This document shows positions 5,068-9,520 of a stretch of DNA of 44,894 nucleotides, in pieces (position 1 is the first letter of the stretch; every line of letters starts with the position of its first letter). The translations under genes were made by a program, and so were the position numbers. Source of the stretch: a virus. Below the pieces are notes generated by a model, which saw only the letters and a list, made by a program, of their open reading frames with translations, made no database searches and had not been told where the DNA came from. The stretch spans positions 1 through 44,894 of the IMG/VR virus record IMGVR_UViG_3300043449_001385, one strand, 5' to 3'.

Positions 5068-5157
5068 AACCCCCTTCTCGATTGTTGATAAATTGTAGTC
5101 CTTCAAAAGCCGCATTCAAAAACCAGCCTAAAACAGCTAAAAAGTGATAACGCAAGT

Positions 5158-5207
5158 CTGCTTTCGTAAAGCGTAGGTCAGCGGTTCGATTCCGCTCATC
5201 GGCTCCA
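5158..5207 (+). other. attP core: 3' half of tRNA-Thr(CGT)
   Basis: The sequence fits tRNA positions 27-76 exactly, with no 5' half upstream: anticodon arm (5158-5174) with loop TTCGTAA and anticodon CGT, variable loop AGGTC, T-arm (5180-5196) with TTCGATT loop, acceptor strand CATCGGC, discriminator T and CCA at 5205-5207. The 3' anticodon stem AGCGT would pair with ACGCT; the phage has CTGCT. Identity to the host gene therefore probably starts at about 5160. Integration would restore the host tRNA's 3' end. The integrase gene lies 580 bp downstream. Confidence 0.85.
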
Positions 5208-5229
5208 CTTTAAAACCCCTACACCTACC

Positions 5230-5260
5230 GCAAATACGTCAAAAACCCAGCAAATACGCC
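5230..5260 (+). repeat. Candidate integrase arm-type sites (direct repeat)
   Basis: GCAAATACGTC and GCAAATACGCC occur at 5230-5240 and 5250-5260, exactly 20 bp apart, or two helical turns. They lie beside the attP core, where arm sites for the integrase N-terminal domain are expected. Protein assignment is inference. Confidence 0.45.
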
Positions 5261-5346
5261 ACTTTCACGCCTGAAACGCCCATTAACAGCCATGAACACC
5301 CAATACCCAACCTTAGCCCCCAAGAACCCCAATTTACCATTCCTCG

Positions 5347-5376
5347 TTGACATCAACGATTAGGGATTGCTAACAA
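5347..5376 (+). promoter_or_regulatory. Candidate promoter for the integration genes
   Basis: TTGACA at 5347-5352 and TAACAA at 5371-5376 are separated by 18 bp, 26 bp before ATG 5402. The -10 is a weak match. Its closeness to attP would allow integrase binding to repress it. Confidence 0.35.
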
Positions 5377-5401
5377 CAAATTTATCTGGTAGAGTGTTTT
5401 T

Positions 5402-5785
5402 ATGAGATATAAGTTCGCGTGGAAGCGAATCGGTGACAACCTGTATCAAGACCAAGCATCGGGGCTGATTTATGTTCGGAAATCGAAAAAGGGTTTCAAG
5501 TCACTGAACCGATCGACTGGCACCAAGGATCGAATTAAGGCTGAACAGGTCCGTGATCGCATGATTGCAGAGTGGTTATCTCCAAAGACTGACCCAGTGC
5601 CTACAGCCGAACCTGCCAATGCGAAAGAACGGCGCAACCTGATTCTCGACCCAGGCGTTAGACACCTCTACAAAGACCAGCGATCAGGTCTCTACTATAT
5701 CCGACTAATCAAGTCCCTTCAGACGAAGGATCGAAACGAAGCTGTCAAACTCATGGCCCAAATCACAAGAGCATTGGAGGTATAA
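5402..5785 (+). CDS. Stand-alone tandem integrase arm-binding-domain protein
   Basis: The 127-aa protein consists of two modules that resemble the N-terminal arm-binding domain of the neighbouring integrase. Module 1 (about residues 13-59) aligns without gaps to integrase residues 17-63. Shared positions include G21, Y24-V25, K27, G31, TGT at 39-41, A47, and RDxMIAxWL at 51-59. Module 2 (about 88-125) keeps HLYKDQRSGLYYIR and TKDRNEA but is shorter. There is no catalytic domain. It is one base upstream of the integrase start, so the two are co-transcribed. It may compete for or bridge arm sites and act as a directionality or regulatory factor. That role is inferred; the homology is visible. 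Confidence 0.75.
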   Translation: MRYKFAWKRIGDNLYQDQASGLIYVRKSKKGFKSLNRSTGTKDRIKAEQVRDRMIAEWLSPKTDPVPTAEPANAKERRNLILDPGVRHLYKDQRSGLYYIRLIKSLQTKDRNEAVKLMAQITRALEV

Positions 5786-5786
5786 G

Positions 5787-6971
5787 ATGCCCACACTGAA
5801 AAAAGCCAAGAACAGGTCCGGTAAAGAAATCGAAAATCTTCTTCGAGCGGAGGAGACCGGGATCTACTATGTCAAGAAAACCAAGACAGGTAAAAAGATC
5901 CTATTCAAGACCACCGGCACTGACAACCTGACCCTCGCTATTGAGATCCGCGACAATATGATTGCTGACTGGCTAAACGATAAGCCGCTCAAACGGGCAG
6001 TGCATGGAACTGATATTATCGTTGAGGATTCGGTTACCGTTGAACAACTCTGCGACAAATTCCTAGAGGACCGGCGCATCTCCGTTAACCATGACGATCC
6101 AGAGTTTAGAATCAGCTATAAGACCTTTCAAAAGGATAAGACTGAGACCAACTTCATCAAGGAAACCTTTGGAACGCTCCCAATAGCCTCGGTGACAACG
6201 AAGTGGTGGACTAATTGGTATAAAGTCGAAGCCAAGAAGCTATCCCGGGGTGTTCGCGAAACCAAGCGTTACATGAGCCTGATTTTTAAGTTCGCTGTTC
6301 AAACTGGACTGCTGGATAACGAGCCACAATTCCCTCTGCCCCCAAAAAGAAAAGAGAAAGCAAAGGGCATTTTCACGGATGAGGAGATTGGAAAACTTTA
6401 CGGGGTCTCTGATCCAAATGTCCGACTGCTAGTTCATCTTTGCATCGAAAACGGACTGCGATCATTTGAAGCGAAGCGGATGCGTTGGGACCATATCTAT
6501 TTCTCGAGTGCCCAGGTTGCCGAAGCGAGCATTGAAAACGAAAGCCCTAAGAAACCTAGTCGCCGGATTAGACTTTCAGAATCATCAACCAATGCATTAC
6601 GAGACCACAAGGCTATCCAAGAAAAAGCAGGGGTCAATTCACCTTGGGTCTTCCCGCGAGAAGATGATCCTCAACTCTATAAGGGAGACACGTTTTGGAG
6701 CAAGCATTGGAATAGCTCGATGGAAGAAGTTCAGTTGCCAGCCGAGAAAACGTCCTACTGGATGCGTCACACCTATATAACCAAGGCAATCCACGAGGAG
6801 AAGAAACACACACAAGACGTAAGCCTCAATGTAGGTGCCTCTGAAACCATCCTCAAGAACCATTATGCCCACGGTAACATCATTCACACTCAAGGGATGG
6901 AATCAGTAGGGAGTCGAATCGCAGACCTCGGTCGCAAAGCCCAAAAGAAGAATAAGGAGTCAGTAAAATGA
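5787..6971 (+). CDS. int: Tyrosine integrase
   Basis: At 394 aa this is a full-length phage tyrosine recombinase. It has an arm-binding domain (about 17-63), a core-binding domain (about 75-190) and a catalytic domain. Catalytic candidates are R225 in the GLRSFEAKR box, R327-H328 in YWMRHT, and nucleophile Y360 in NHYAHG. The usual His three residues before the second Arg is Tyr324. The segment before the nucleophile reads LNVGAS rather than LGHS, a variant seen in proteobacterial phage integrases. GGAGG precedes ATG 5787. With the adjacent tRNA-Thr half site it should integrate the phage into the host tRNA-Thr(CGT) gene. The next gene overlaps by ATGA. Confidence 0.93.
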   Translation: MPTLKKAKNRSGKEIENLLRAEETGIYYVKKTKTGKKILFKTTGTDNLTLAIEIRDNMIADWLNDKPLKRAVHGTDIIVEDSVTVEQLCDKFLEDRRISVNHDDPEFRISYKTFQKDKTETNFIKETFGTLPIASVTTKWWTNWYKVEAKKLSRGVRETKRYMSLIFKFAVQTGLLDNEPQFPLPPKRKEKAKGIFTDEEIGKLYGVSDPNVRLLVHLCIENGLRSFEAKRMRWDHIYFSSAQVAEASIENESPKKPSRRIRLSESSTNALRDHKAIQEKAGVNSPWVFPREDDPQLYKGDTFWSKHWNSSMEEVQLPAEKTSYWMRHTYITKAIHEEKKHTQDVSLNVGASETILKNHYAHGNIIHTQGMESVGSRIADLGRKAQKKNKESVK

Positions 6972-8490: not shown

Positions 8491-8623
8491 TTTTCTGATT
8501 CTTTTTTTTGTCTCTGCATAGAGCAGATTGAATTGCTTTACACCTGCGGCAAACAATATGACCGCTCTTATTAATCCGAAGGTTGACCGTATTTAAGATA
8601 TGCCCGTTTTTACACTTCTTCAT
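8465..8623 (-). CDS. Small zinc-finger protein (first of a paralogous pair)
   Basis: The 52-aa frame reads MKKCKNGHILNTVN, then SGHIVCRRCKAIQSALCRD, matching the following gene block for block (C-x2-GH, G-x2-C-x2-C-x-AI). It overlaps the gene before it by 14 bases and the gene after it by 26, each in a different frame. Two paralogous zinc-finger genes in overlapping frames point to local duplication followed by compaction. Confidence 0.65.
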   Translation of the reverse strand: MKKCKNGHILNTVNLRINKSGHIVCRRCKAIQSALCRDKKKNQKNEKTSNAL

Positions 8624-8816
8624 GACCGTACCTGCGATGCTTTACACAATATTTACCGTCAGTTTTAGCCATTGAGTTTGGGATGAATTCCACATTACAG
8701 CCGGGACGCTGACACTTCTTTTTTCGATGTTCTCTGCAAAGCCCAAAGCGGTTAACGACAATCTTAGAACACCCCTCATGTCTACAAGGCTCTCCGAGAT
8801 CATTCCTGCCAGTCAT
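8610..8816 (-). CDS. Small zinc-binding protein
   Basis: The 68-aa product contains CRHEGCSKIVVNRFGLCREHR followed by CQRPGCN and YCVKH, two Cys/His clusters suggesting two zinc sites. ATG 8816 follows GGAG by six bases, better than the TTG two codons earlier. It overlaps the gene at 8623 by 14 bases. Small CxxxxC...CxxH proteins like this are common in phage early regions and are probably nucleic-acid binding. Confidence 0.7.
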   Translation of the reverse strand: MTGRNDLGEPCRHEGCSKIVVNRFGLCREHRKKKCQRPGCNVEFIPNSMAKTDGKYCVKHRRYGHEEV

Positions 8817-9030
8817 TTTCAACTCCGAGGAGATCCATCACTTCCTTAGCAGCATTCCGACGAGCGACATGAAACCCACCAGTCAATACAAGATGAGCCG
8901 AAGCTTTAATTCCAGCCTTCACACCAGCTTTATATGCGGCAAGGATATCGTGAGAGCAGTAGGTGTGCTGAGGGGGGCAAGTAAATTTCGACACGTACTC
9001 GAGTGCCTGTTCCGTTAGTTCTTTCTTCAT
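8800..9030 (-). CDS. Small hypothetical early protein
   Basis: The 76-aa product from ATG 9030 (GAGAAAG upstream) has two cysteines and an Ala-rich helix (ILAAYKAGVKAGIKASAHL). The longer frame to 9072 overlaps the upstream gene and lacks a good SD. I recognise no family. Confidence 0.55.
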   Translation of the reverse strand: MKKELTEQALEYVSKFTCPPQHTYCSHDILAAYKAGVKAGIKASAHLVLTGGFHVARRNAAKEVMDLLGVENDWQE

Positions 9031-9037
9031 ATCTTTC

Positions 9038-9259
9038 TCACATTGTATTTTTAAATTGTAAAGGCAGGTCATTCATGAGCTTGGTTGTTTTGATGATCCC
9101 AATTGAGATATCTAAGCCCTTCAAAATACTTCTAGCCTCAATCAGATTTTCTTTATTTTGTTGAATCGGAAACTCGCAGTAGATCTTATCAAGCTTAATG
9201 ACCGTTTCTCTCATTTGCCGATACCGTTGAGTGATTTGACGTTCAATATGCTCGAGCAT
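9038..9259 (-). CDS. Small helical early protein
   Basis: The 73-aa product starts MLEHIERQITQRYRQMRE at an ATG that shares its A with the preceding TAA stop (TAATG at 9259). It is predicted all-helical, with no motif. It sits between the HTH protein and a run of tiny genes. Function unknown. Confidence 0.55.
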   Translation of the reverse strand: MLEHIERQITQRYRQMRETVIKLDKIYCEFPIQQNKENLIEARSILKGLDISIGIIKTTKLMNDLPLQFKNTM

Positions 9260-9471
9260 TAGTAGCGCCTTCCCTGAATACGAGCGTGAACCCACTTCTC
9301 AAAGCGATCAGCAGGGTAGAAGGTCTTTCGCCCCAATCTCACAAACGGAGGATGATCAGCTTCTCGAGACCGTTTCACTCTCAATGATTCAATCTTGACC
9401 CCAAGGATCTGTGCTACTTTTTCTTCTGGCAGGTAGGTTCCTGCTTTACCGTCAATAGTAATTGTTTCCAT
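9259..9471 (-). CDS. Excisionase-like helix-turn-helix protein
   Basis: From ATG 9471 the 70-aa product has the layout of a MerR/Xis-type winged helix: EEKVAQILGVKIESLRVKR (helix-turn-helix) followed by PPFVRLGRKTFYPADRFEKWV, the wing and C-terminal helix typical of AlpA/excisionase proteins. GGGG lies four bases upstream; an in-frame GTG at 9483 is less likely. It may be the recombination directionality factor for the integrase or a transcription regulator. An 18-bp dyad (9521-9538) lies just upstream of its start and could be its operator. Confidence 0.7.
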   Translation of the reverse strand: METITIDGKAGTYLPEEKVAQILGVKIESLRVKRSREADHPPFVRLGRKTFYPADRFEKWVHARIQGRRY

Positions 9472-9520
9472 GTGTCCCCACACAACTGCTCGGCTGTTTG
9501 ATTTGAGGCAAACGATTTAC

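Follow-up and report, generated by a model that had tools for sequence, protein, structure and literature searches.

What can a small protein do that carries the arm-binding module of a tyrosine integrase, has nothing catalytic, and is encoded directly before that integrase? Such a gene pair lies in IMGVR_UViG_3300043449_001385, a single IMG/VR virus record whose 44,894 bp form the window. The record belongs to a divergent temperate phage. A CI-like HTH_3 repressor and a tyrosine integrase are among its genes, and it also codes for a divergent terminase, a portal, a DnaB-like helicase, a Sak4-like annealing protein and a RecE-like exonuclease. Because the terminase is 24% identical to the sole annotated phage record found and ~22-31% identical to the IMG/VR relatives found, the phage represents an isolated lineage within the collections searched. 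A weak RecE similarity to phage phi1422 gave a Bdellovibrio-like host as a lead that we do not claim. Two other loci deserve mention: an Amidoligase_2 gene (E 4e-14) adjoining a class-II glutamine amidotransferase-like gene near attP (476-2737, + strand), possibly cargo genes, and a small Cys-rich ORF (8610-8822, - strand) with a Pfam WRKY19 zinc-finger match above the cut-off (E 5e-7), unusual for a phage.

The ORF lies at 5402-5785 on the + strand, encodes 127 aa and is followed by the integrase ORF, just as the earlier note on this DNA had described. Its product is basic (28 K/R, 14 D/E). Module 1 (aa 13-59; 5438-5578, + strand) is a full arm-binding-like module that aligns with aa 16-62 of the integrase, that is, with the integrase's own N-terminal module (5832-5972, + strand), at 43% identity (E 6.7e-10 in a within-window search); in the shuffle test the match had a z of ~18 and none of 2,000 shuffles scored as well. 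In its homology to a tyrosine-integrase N-terminal module, module 1 thus resembles an arm-binding domain. After a linker of ~28 residues comes module 2 (aa 88-126; 5663-5779, + strand), a shortened copy recognized by its similarity to module 1 (score 60; 0 of 2,000 shuffles as good, the best reaching 46-48) and lacking ~8 hairpin residues, the 8-residue gap falling at the expected position of strand 2 and the hairpin. Its similarity to the integrase is marginal, with 34 of 2,000 shuffles as good against the full integrase and 7 of 2,000 against its N-terminus, and its C-terminal part (aa 101-126) gives a sub-threshold Pfam match to DUF6538 (E 2.5e-4; 21.1 bits, cut-off 27), which we take to be an integrase N-terminal domain. 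The description of the protein as two copies of the arm-binding module therefore holds for a full first and a statistically significant second copy, but the second is truncated. That the protein is without a catalytic part is borne out by Pfam, PHROGs and NCBIfam, in which no core-binding domain and no catalytic domain with the R/K/R/Y residues was detected, nor any HTH match; the winged-helix/HTH fold of known recombination directionality factors (RDFs) was likewise not seen. No curated arm-binding family in Pfam exceeded the cut-off for module 1 alone or for the integrase's own module alone, and PDB sequence searches returned only spurious matches (beta-trefoils and others), with no significant match of module 1 to a known arm domain.

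The downstream gene (5787-6971, + strand) encodes a tyrosine integrase of 394 aa that matches the phrog_1 integrase family over aa 4-334 (E 1.7e-31) and Pfam Phage_integrase (E 9.1e-6). R225, K255 and Y360 are invariant in comparison with four distant integrases, and R327 is kept in most of them. The active-site region (6751-6870) is without the usual HxxR histidine and LGH histidine (SYWMRHT, VGASE...HYAH). The ORF ends 1 nt before the integrase start, which agrees with its placement one gene upstream, and a GGAGG serving as the integrase ribosome-binding site lies within the end of the ORF (5776-5780, + strand), 6 nt before the ATG at 5787. This spacing and the GGAGG support co-expression of the two proteins, and from them we infer that the genes are probably co-transcribed. 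A frameshift fusion of the ORF with the integrase was also considered and rejected: upstream of the ATG the integrase frame is open for only ~26 codons and encodes no module there, and the Shine-Dalgarno sequence suits an independent integrase start.

Codon usage is positive in both halves of the ORF (0.20 and 0.21 bits per codon, compared with 0.07-0.36 in known phage genes) and negative in all its other frames; off-frame segments of phage genes never exceeded -0.10. In the comparisons of module 1 with the integrase module and of module 1 with module 2, identity at third positions is close to random (35-41%) and synonymous distance has reached saturation, yet identical residues number 22 of 51 and 16 of 27, respectively. 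Because synonymous sites are saturated while residues stay identical, the duplications are old and the amino acids conserved, and selection has therefore kept the module. The ORF is thus best regarded, on codon-level evidence, as an old, maintained gene, and this makes a frameshift of recent origin or a fragment in decay less likely; the codon statistics and saturated synonymous sites suggest neither the lost coding constraint nor the broken frame of an integrase pseudogene. Integrase fragments are generally common in prophages, and the degenerate appearance of module 2 would fit a functionless remnant of an older, longer or second integrase N-terminus. We nevertheless find such a remnant improbable, since the ORF has no stop codons, a coding signal runs through both halves, the protein is conserved despite synonymous saturation, the integrase is intact and has a module and a ribosome-binding site of its own, and the short open stretch before its ATG holds no further module. 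The same codon statistics, saturated sites and intact integrase speak against a frameshifted integrase fragment, the outcome that the earlier note had named as fatal to its proposal.

The predicted structure bears on what kind of DNA-binding protein this may be. In an AlphaFold (AF2) model built from a two-sequence input, module 1 is predicted to form strands at residues 7-11, 14-17, 23-27 and 35-38 and a helix at 44-59 (pLDDT ~72-84), while module 2 is modelled with low confidence as strand-strand-helix (pLDDT ~45-55); the integrase alone gave a pLDDT of 33. Arm-binding domains consist of three strands plus a helix and belong to a single Pfam clan (PMC8138268). The model of module 1 has this sheet-plus-helix fold, whereas that of module 2 has just two strands, and module 2 may neither fold nor bind DNA. 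Foldseek returned nothing at E <= 0.001. The best viral fold match was the 135-aa AP2/ERF protein of Mycobacterium phage Pipefish (E 5.2e-3, probability 0.91), which together with the module 1 model agrees with the arm-binding fold (PMC8138268), and the lower-ranked matches include further AP2 and HNH proteins, all weak, and one integrase. The Pipefish match and the several weak HNH matches would also suit an AP2-like regulator with no part in recombination, such as a transcription factor of the lysogeny module, that shares only common ancestry with the integrase domain, and regulators that evolved from the DNA-binding domains of phage nucleases provide a precedent (PMC10448857). We hold this to be quite improbable, however, as the neighbouring integrase is the nearest relative by sequence among those found and the gene sits between attP and int.

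That position is defined by the attachment site. Alignment with tRNA-Thr(cgt) genes from other bacteria, confirmed by ARAGORN, places the 3' half of such a tRNA-Thr(CGT) at 5164-5207 (+ strand), with its CCA end at 5207. ARAGORN finds no full tRNA at the site. The half is present once in the window, and a single incomplete copy is as expected of an attP core; this is the likely attP core, and the phage probably integrates at the host tRNA-Thr(CGT) gene. The core is followed, all in one direction, by 194 nt comprising the P' arm and promoter region (5208-5401, + strand), the ORF and the integrase, an arrangement that puts the ORF in the right place for a regulator of recombination or of int expression. 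The P' arm contains an exact TTGACA at ~5348, and no full or consensus promoter match was found in this region. Candidate arm-type repeats of the form TTCAAAA(A/G)CC lie at 5102, 5115 and 5238, the first two lying 13 nt apart to the left of the core (5102-5124, + strand), and the candidate elements to its right (5230-5258, + strand) are GTCAAAAACC (5238) and GCAAATACG (5230 and 5250). Their statistics are weak: in most settings shuffled sequence gave candidates as good, and in the best setting 1 of 60 shuffles did so.

The candidate repeats are paired to the left and right of the core (13 and 20 nt apart), the modules stand in tandem with the linker of about 28 residues between them, and co-expression with Int is supported; together these features could point to a positive cofactor or bridge, in which the two modules on neighbouring arm sites help Int to build the integrative intasome and replace part of an IHF-like or extra-Int role. 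Given the shortened module 2 with its low-confidence model and the statistical weakness of the repeats, we regard this as unlikely.

Most known directionality factors of tyrosine integrases are HTH or winged-helix proteins without kinship to the recombinase. The ORF product might be a counterpart of Xis with an AP2-like fold, binding the arms of attP and attL and turning Int towards excision; it is small, basic and DNA-binding-like and is encoded beside int and att. Yet the apparent co-transcription with int means that the ORF could not be induced separately, and in such an att-int layout the transcription of int and of the RDF is described as uncoupled (PMC2951348); because the ORF is coupled to int, this role is less likely, and we give it little probability. 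The window also offers another Xis candidate, albeit a weak one, in a small HTH_17-like ORF at 9259-9483 (- strand; Pfam E 0.047), possibly an excisionase of the conventional kind.

The reading to which we incline, tentatively, is that the ORF encodes a catalytically dead competitor of Int for arm sites that also represses its own operon. An old duplicate of the integrase's AP2-like arm-binding domain would have become a gene of its own that holds a second, degenerate copy. Because the module is shared with the integrase, shared arm sites are suggested, and the protein may bind some of the integrase's arm-type sites in attP and attL. With the core-binding and catalytic domains missing, it could neither bridge nor cut, and would fill arm sites without bridging to the core and so compete with Int. 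Repression of the ORF-int operon through the same arm binding is proposed because the promoter region sits in the P' arm, which is the attL side once the phage is integrated. Overall the protein would act as a self-limiting brake: Int would stay scarce, and the integrated (or excised) state would persist once the first reaction is over. We infer every DNA-binding step of this mechanism. Prophages inserted at tRNA genes commonly have int after the tRNA in the same orientation and its promoter within attL; the promoter of tRNA-associated integrase genes overlaps attL in 61.5% of cases, and among the E. coli examples tested Int represses its own gene, with intS repressed by the RDF as well (PMC2951348). 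The weak arm repeats, the missing consensus promoter, the lack of relatives, a second module that may neither fold nor bind, and the absence of a significant Pfam or PDB match for module 1 and of a Foldseek match at E <= 0.001 count against a competitor. More broadly, it is plausible that the ORF is a built-in brake or helper for the entry of the phage into, or its exit from, the host chromosome.

We then looked for relatives of this arrangement. IMG/VR and GTDB contigs were scanned with single-protein and alignment-pattern queries made from the ORF and the integrase (one IMG/VR pattern alignment included three hand-written generic consensus peptides, added only to loosen the pattern), and annotated phages and plasmids were searched by tblastn. 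No ORF homologue or double-module protein was found in any of the four collections, and the IMG/VR and GTDB scans yielded no relative carrying the module with either query. A generic integrase scan gave 68 distant loci, all matched in the core-binding/catalytic region and none with the module. On the Paracoccus versutus plasmid pTAV1 (891-3421 of the retrieved locus) two different tyrosine integrases form an overlapping tandem. Neither the ORF nor the integrase was found in the terminase-based sister-phage records (~22-31% identity), an empty result that carries little weight. The earlier note had suggested looking for double-module proteins beside tyrosine integrases; around 25 viral integrases, distinct and distant, 58 small neighbouring ORFs showed no arm-binding family among the 25 best-represented Pfam families listed, the sole exception in the survey being the DUF6538 match of the window's own ORF. 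A free-standing tandem arm domain beside an integrase was not found in the open-access papers searched either. Since no collection yielded relatives, conservation of the gene or of its synteny cannot be shown; the lack of relatives is weak evidence, as pattern scans have limited reach for so divergent a protein. Hence the proposal of a new type of recombination regulator stands as far as a maintained, catalytic-free arm-module protein between the attP core and the integrase is concerned, and is plausible but unproven for this ORF, but its status as a class finds no backing in the collections searched.

It is possible, if somewhat unlikely, that phages have split off the arm-binding domain as a free-standing tandem protein working in trans at the arm sites of the integrase, a regulator class built from the recombinase and not from an HTH protein. 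If true, feedback control of lysogeny could have evolved by a simple route, with the recombinase's own arm-binding domain turned into the regulator. The ORF is a testable natural case for whether arm domains act in trans, and its product could serve to switch integrase tools.

The kind of domain is already known, and its free-standing tandem version beside an integrase is the new aspect, here as a single case. With arm-binding domains of the IntTn916/IntBPP-1 type (Pfam clan CL0081; PMC8138268) the ORF shares homology to the N-terminus of the adjacent tyrosine integrase and, in the model of module 1, the strands-plus-helix fold; it differs in being stand-alone and tandem, without a core-binding or catalytic domain and with no Pfam arm-binding family above threshold. 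Autoregulated integrases at tRNA genes, IntS of KplE1/HK620 among them (PMC2951348), likewise have a tRNA 3' end before int in one orientation and a promoter region in the attL arm, whereas the window has a separate arm-module protein between att and int, and autoregulation here is only putative. Phages do have stand-alone AP2 proteins, and the predicted module fold resembles that of phage AP2/ERF proteins and AP2-HNH homing endonucleases (PMC10448857), but the ORF has no nuclease domain and is closer in sequence to the integrase. Like the RDFs Xis, TorI and RdfS it is small, basic and near int and att, yet those are winged-helix/HTH proteins and the ORF has a predicted AP2/arm-binding-like module. 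Finally, the N-terminal domain of lambda Int is also a small arm-site module, and the pattern in which it bridges arm sites sets the direction of recombination (PMC4880445); in lambda this module is covalently joined to Int, whereas here it is encoded as a separate protein.
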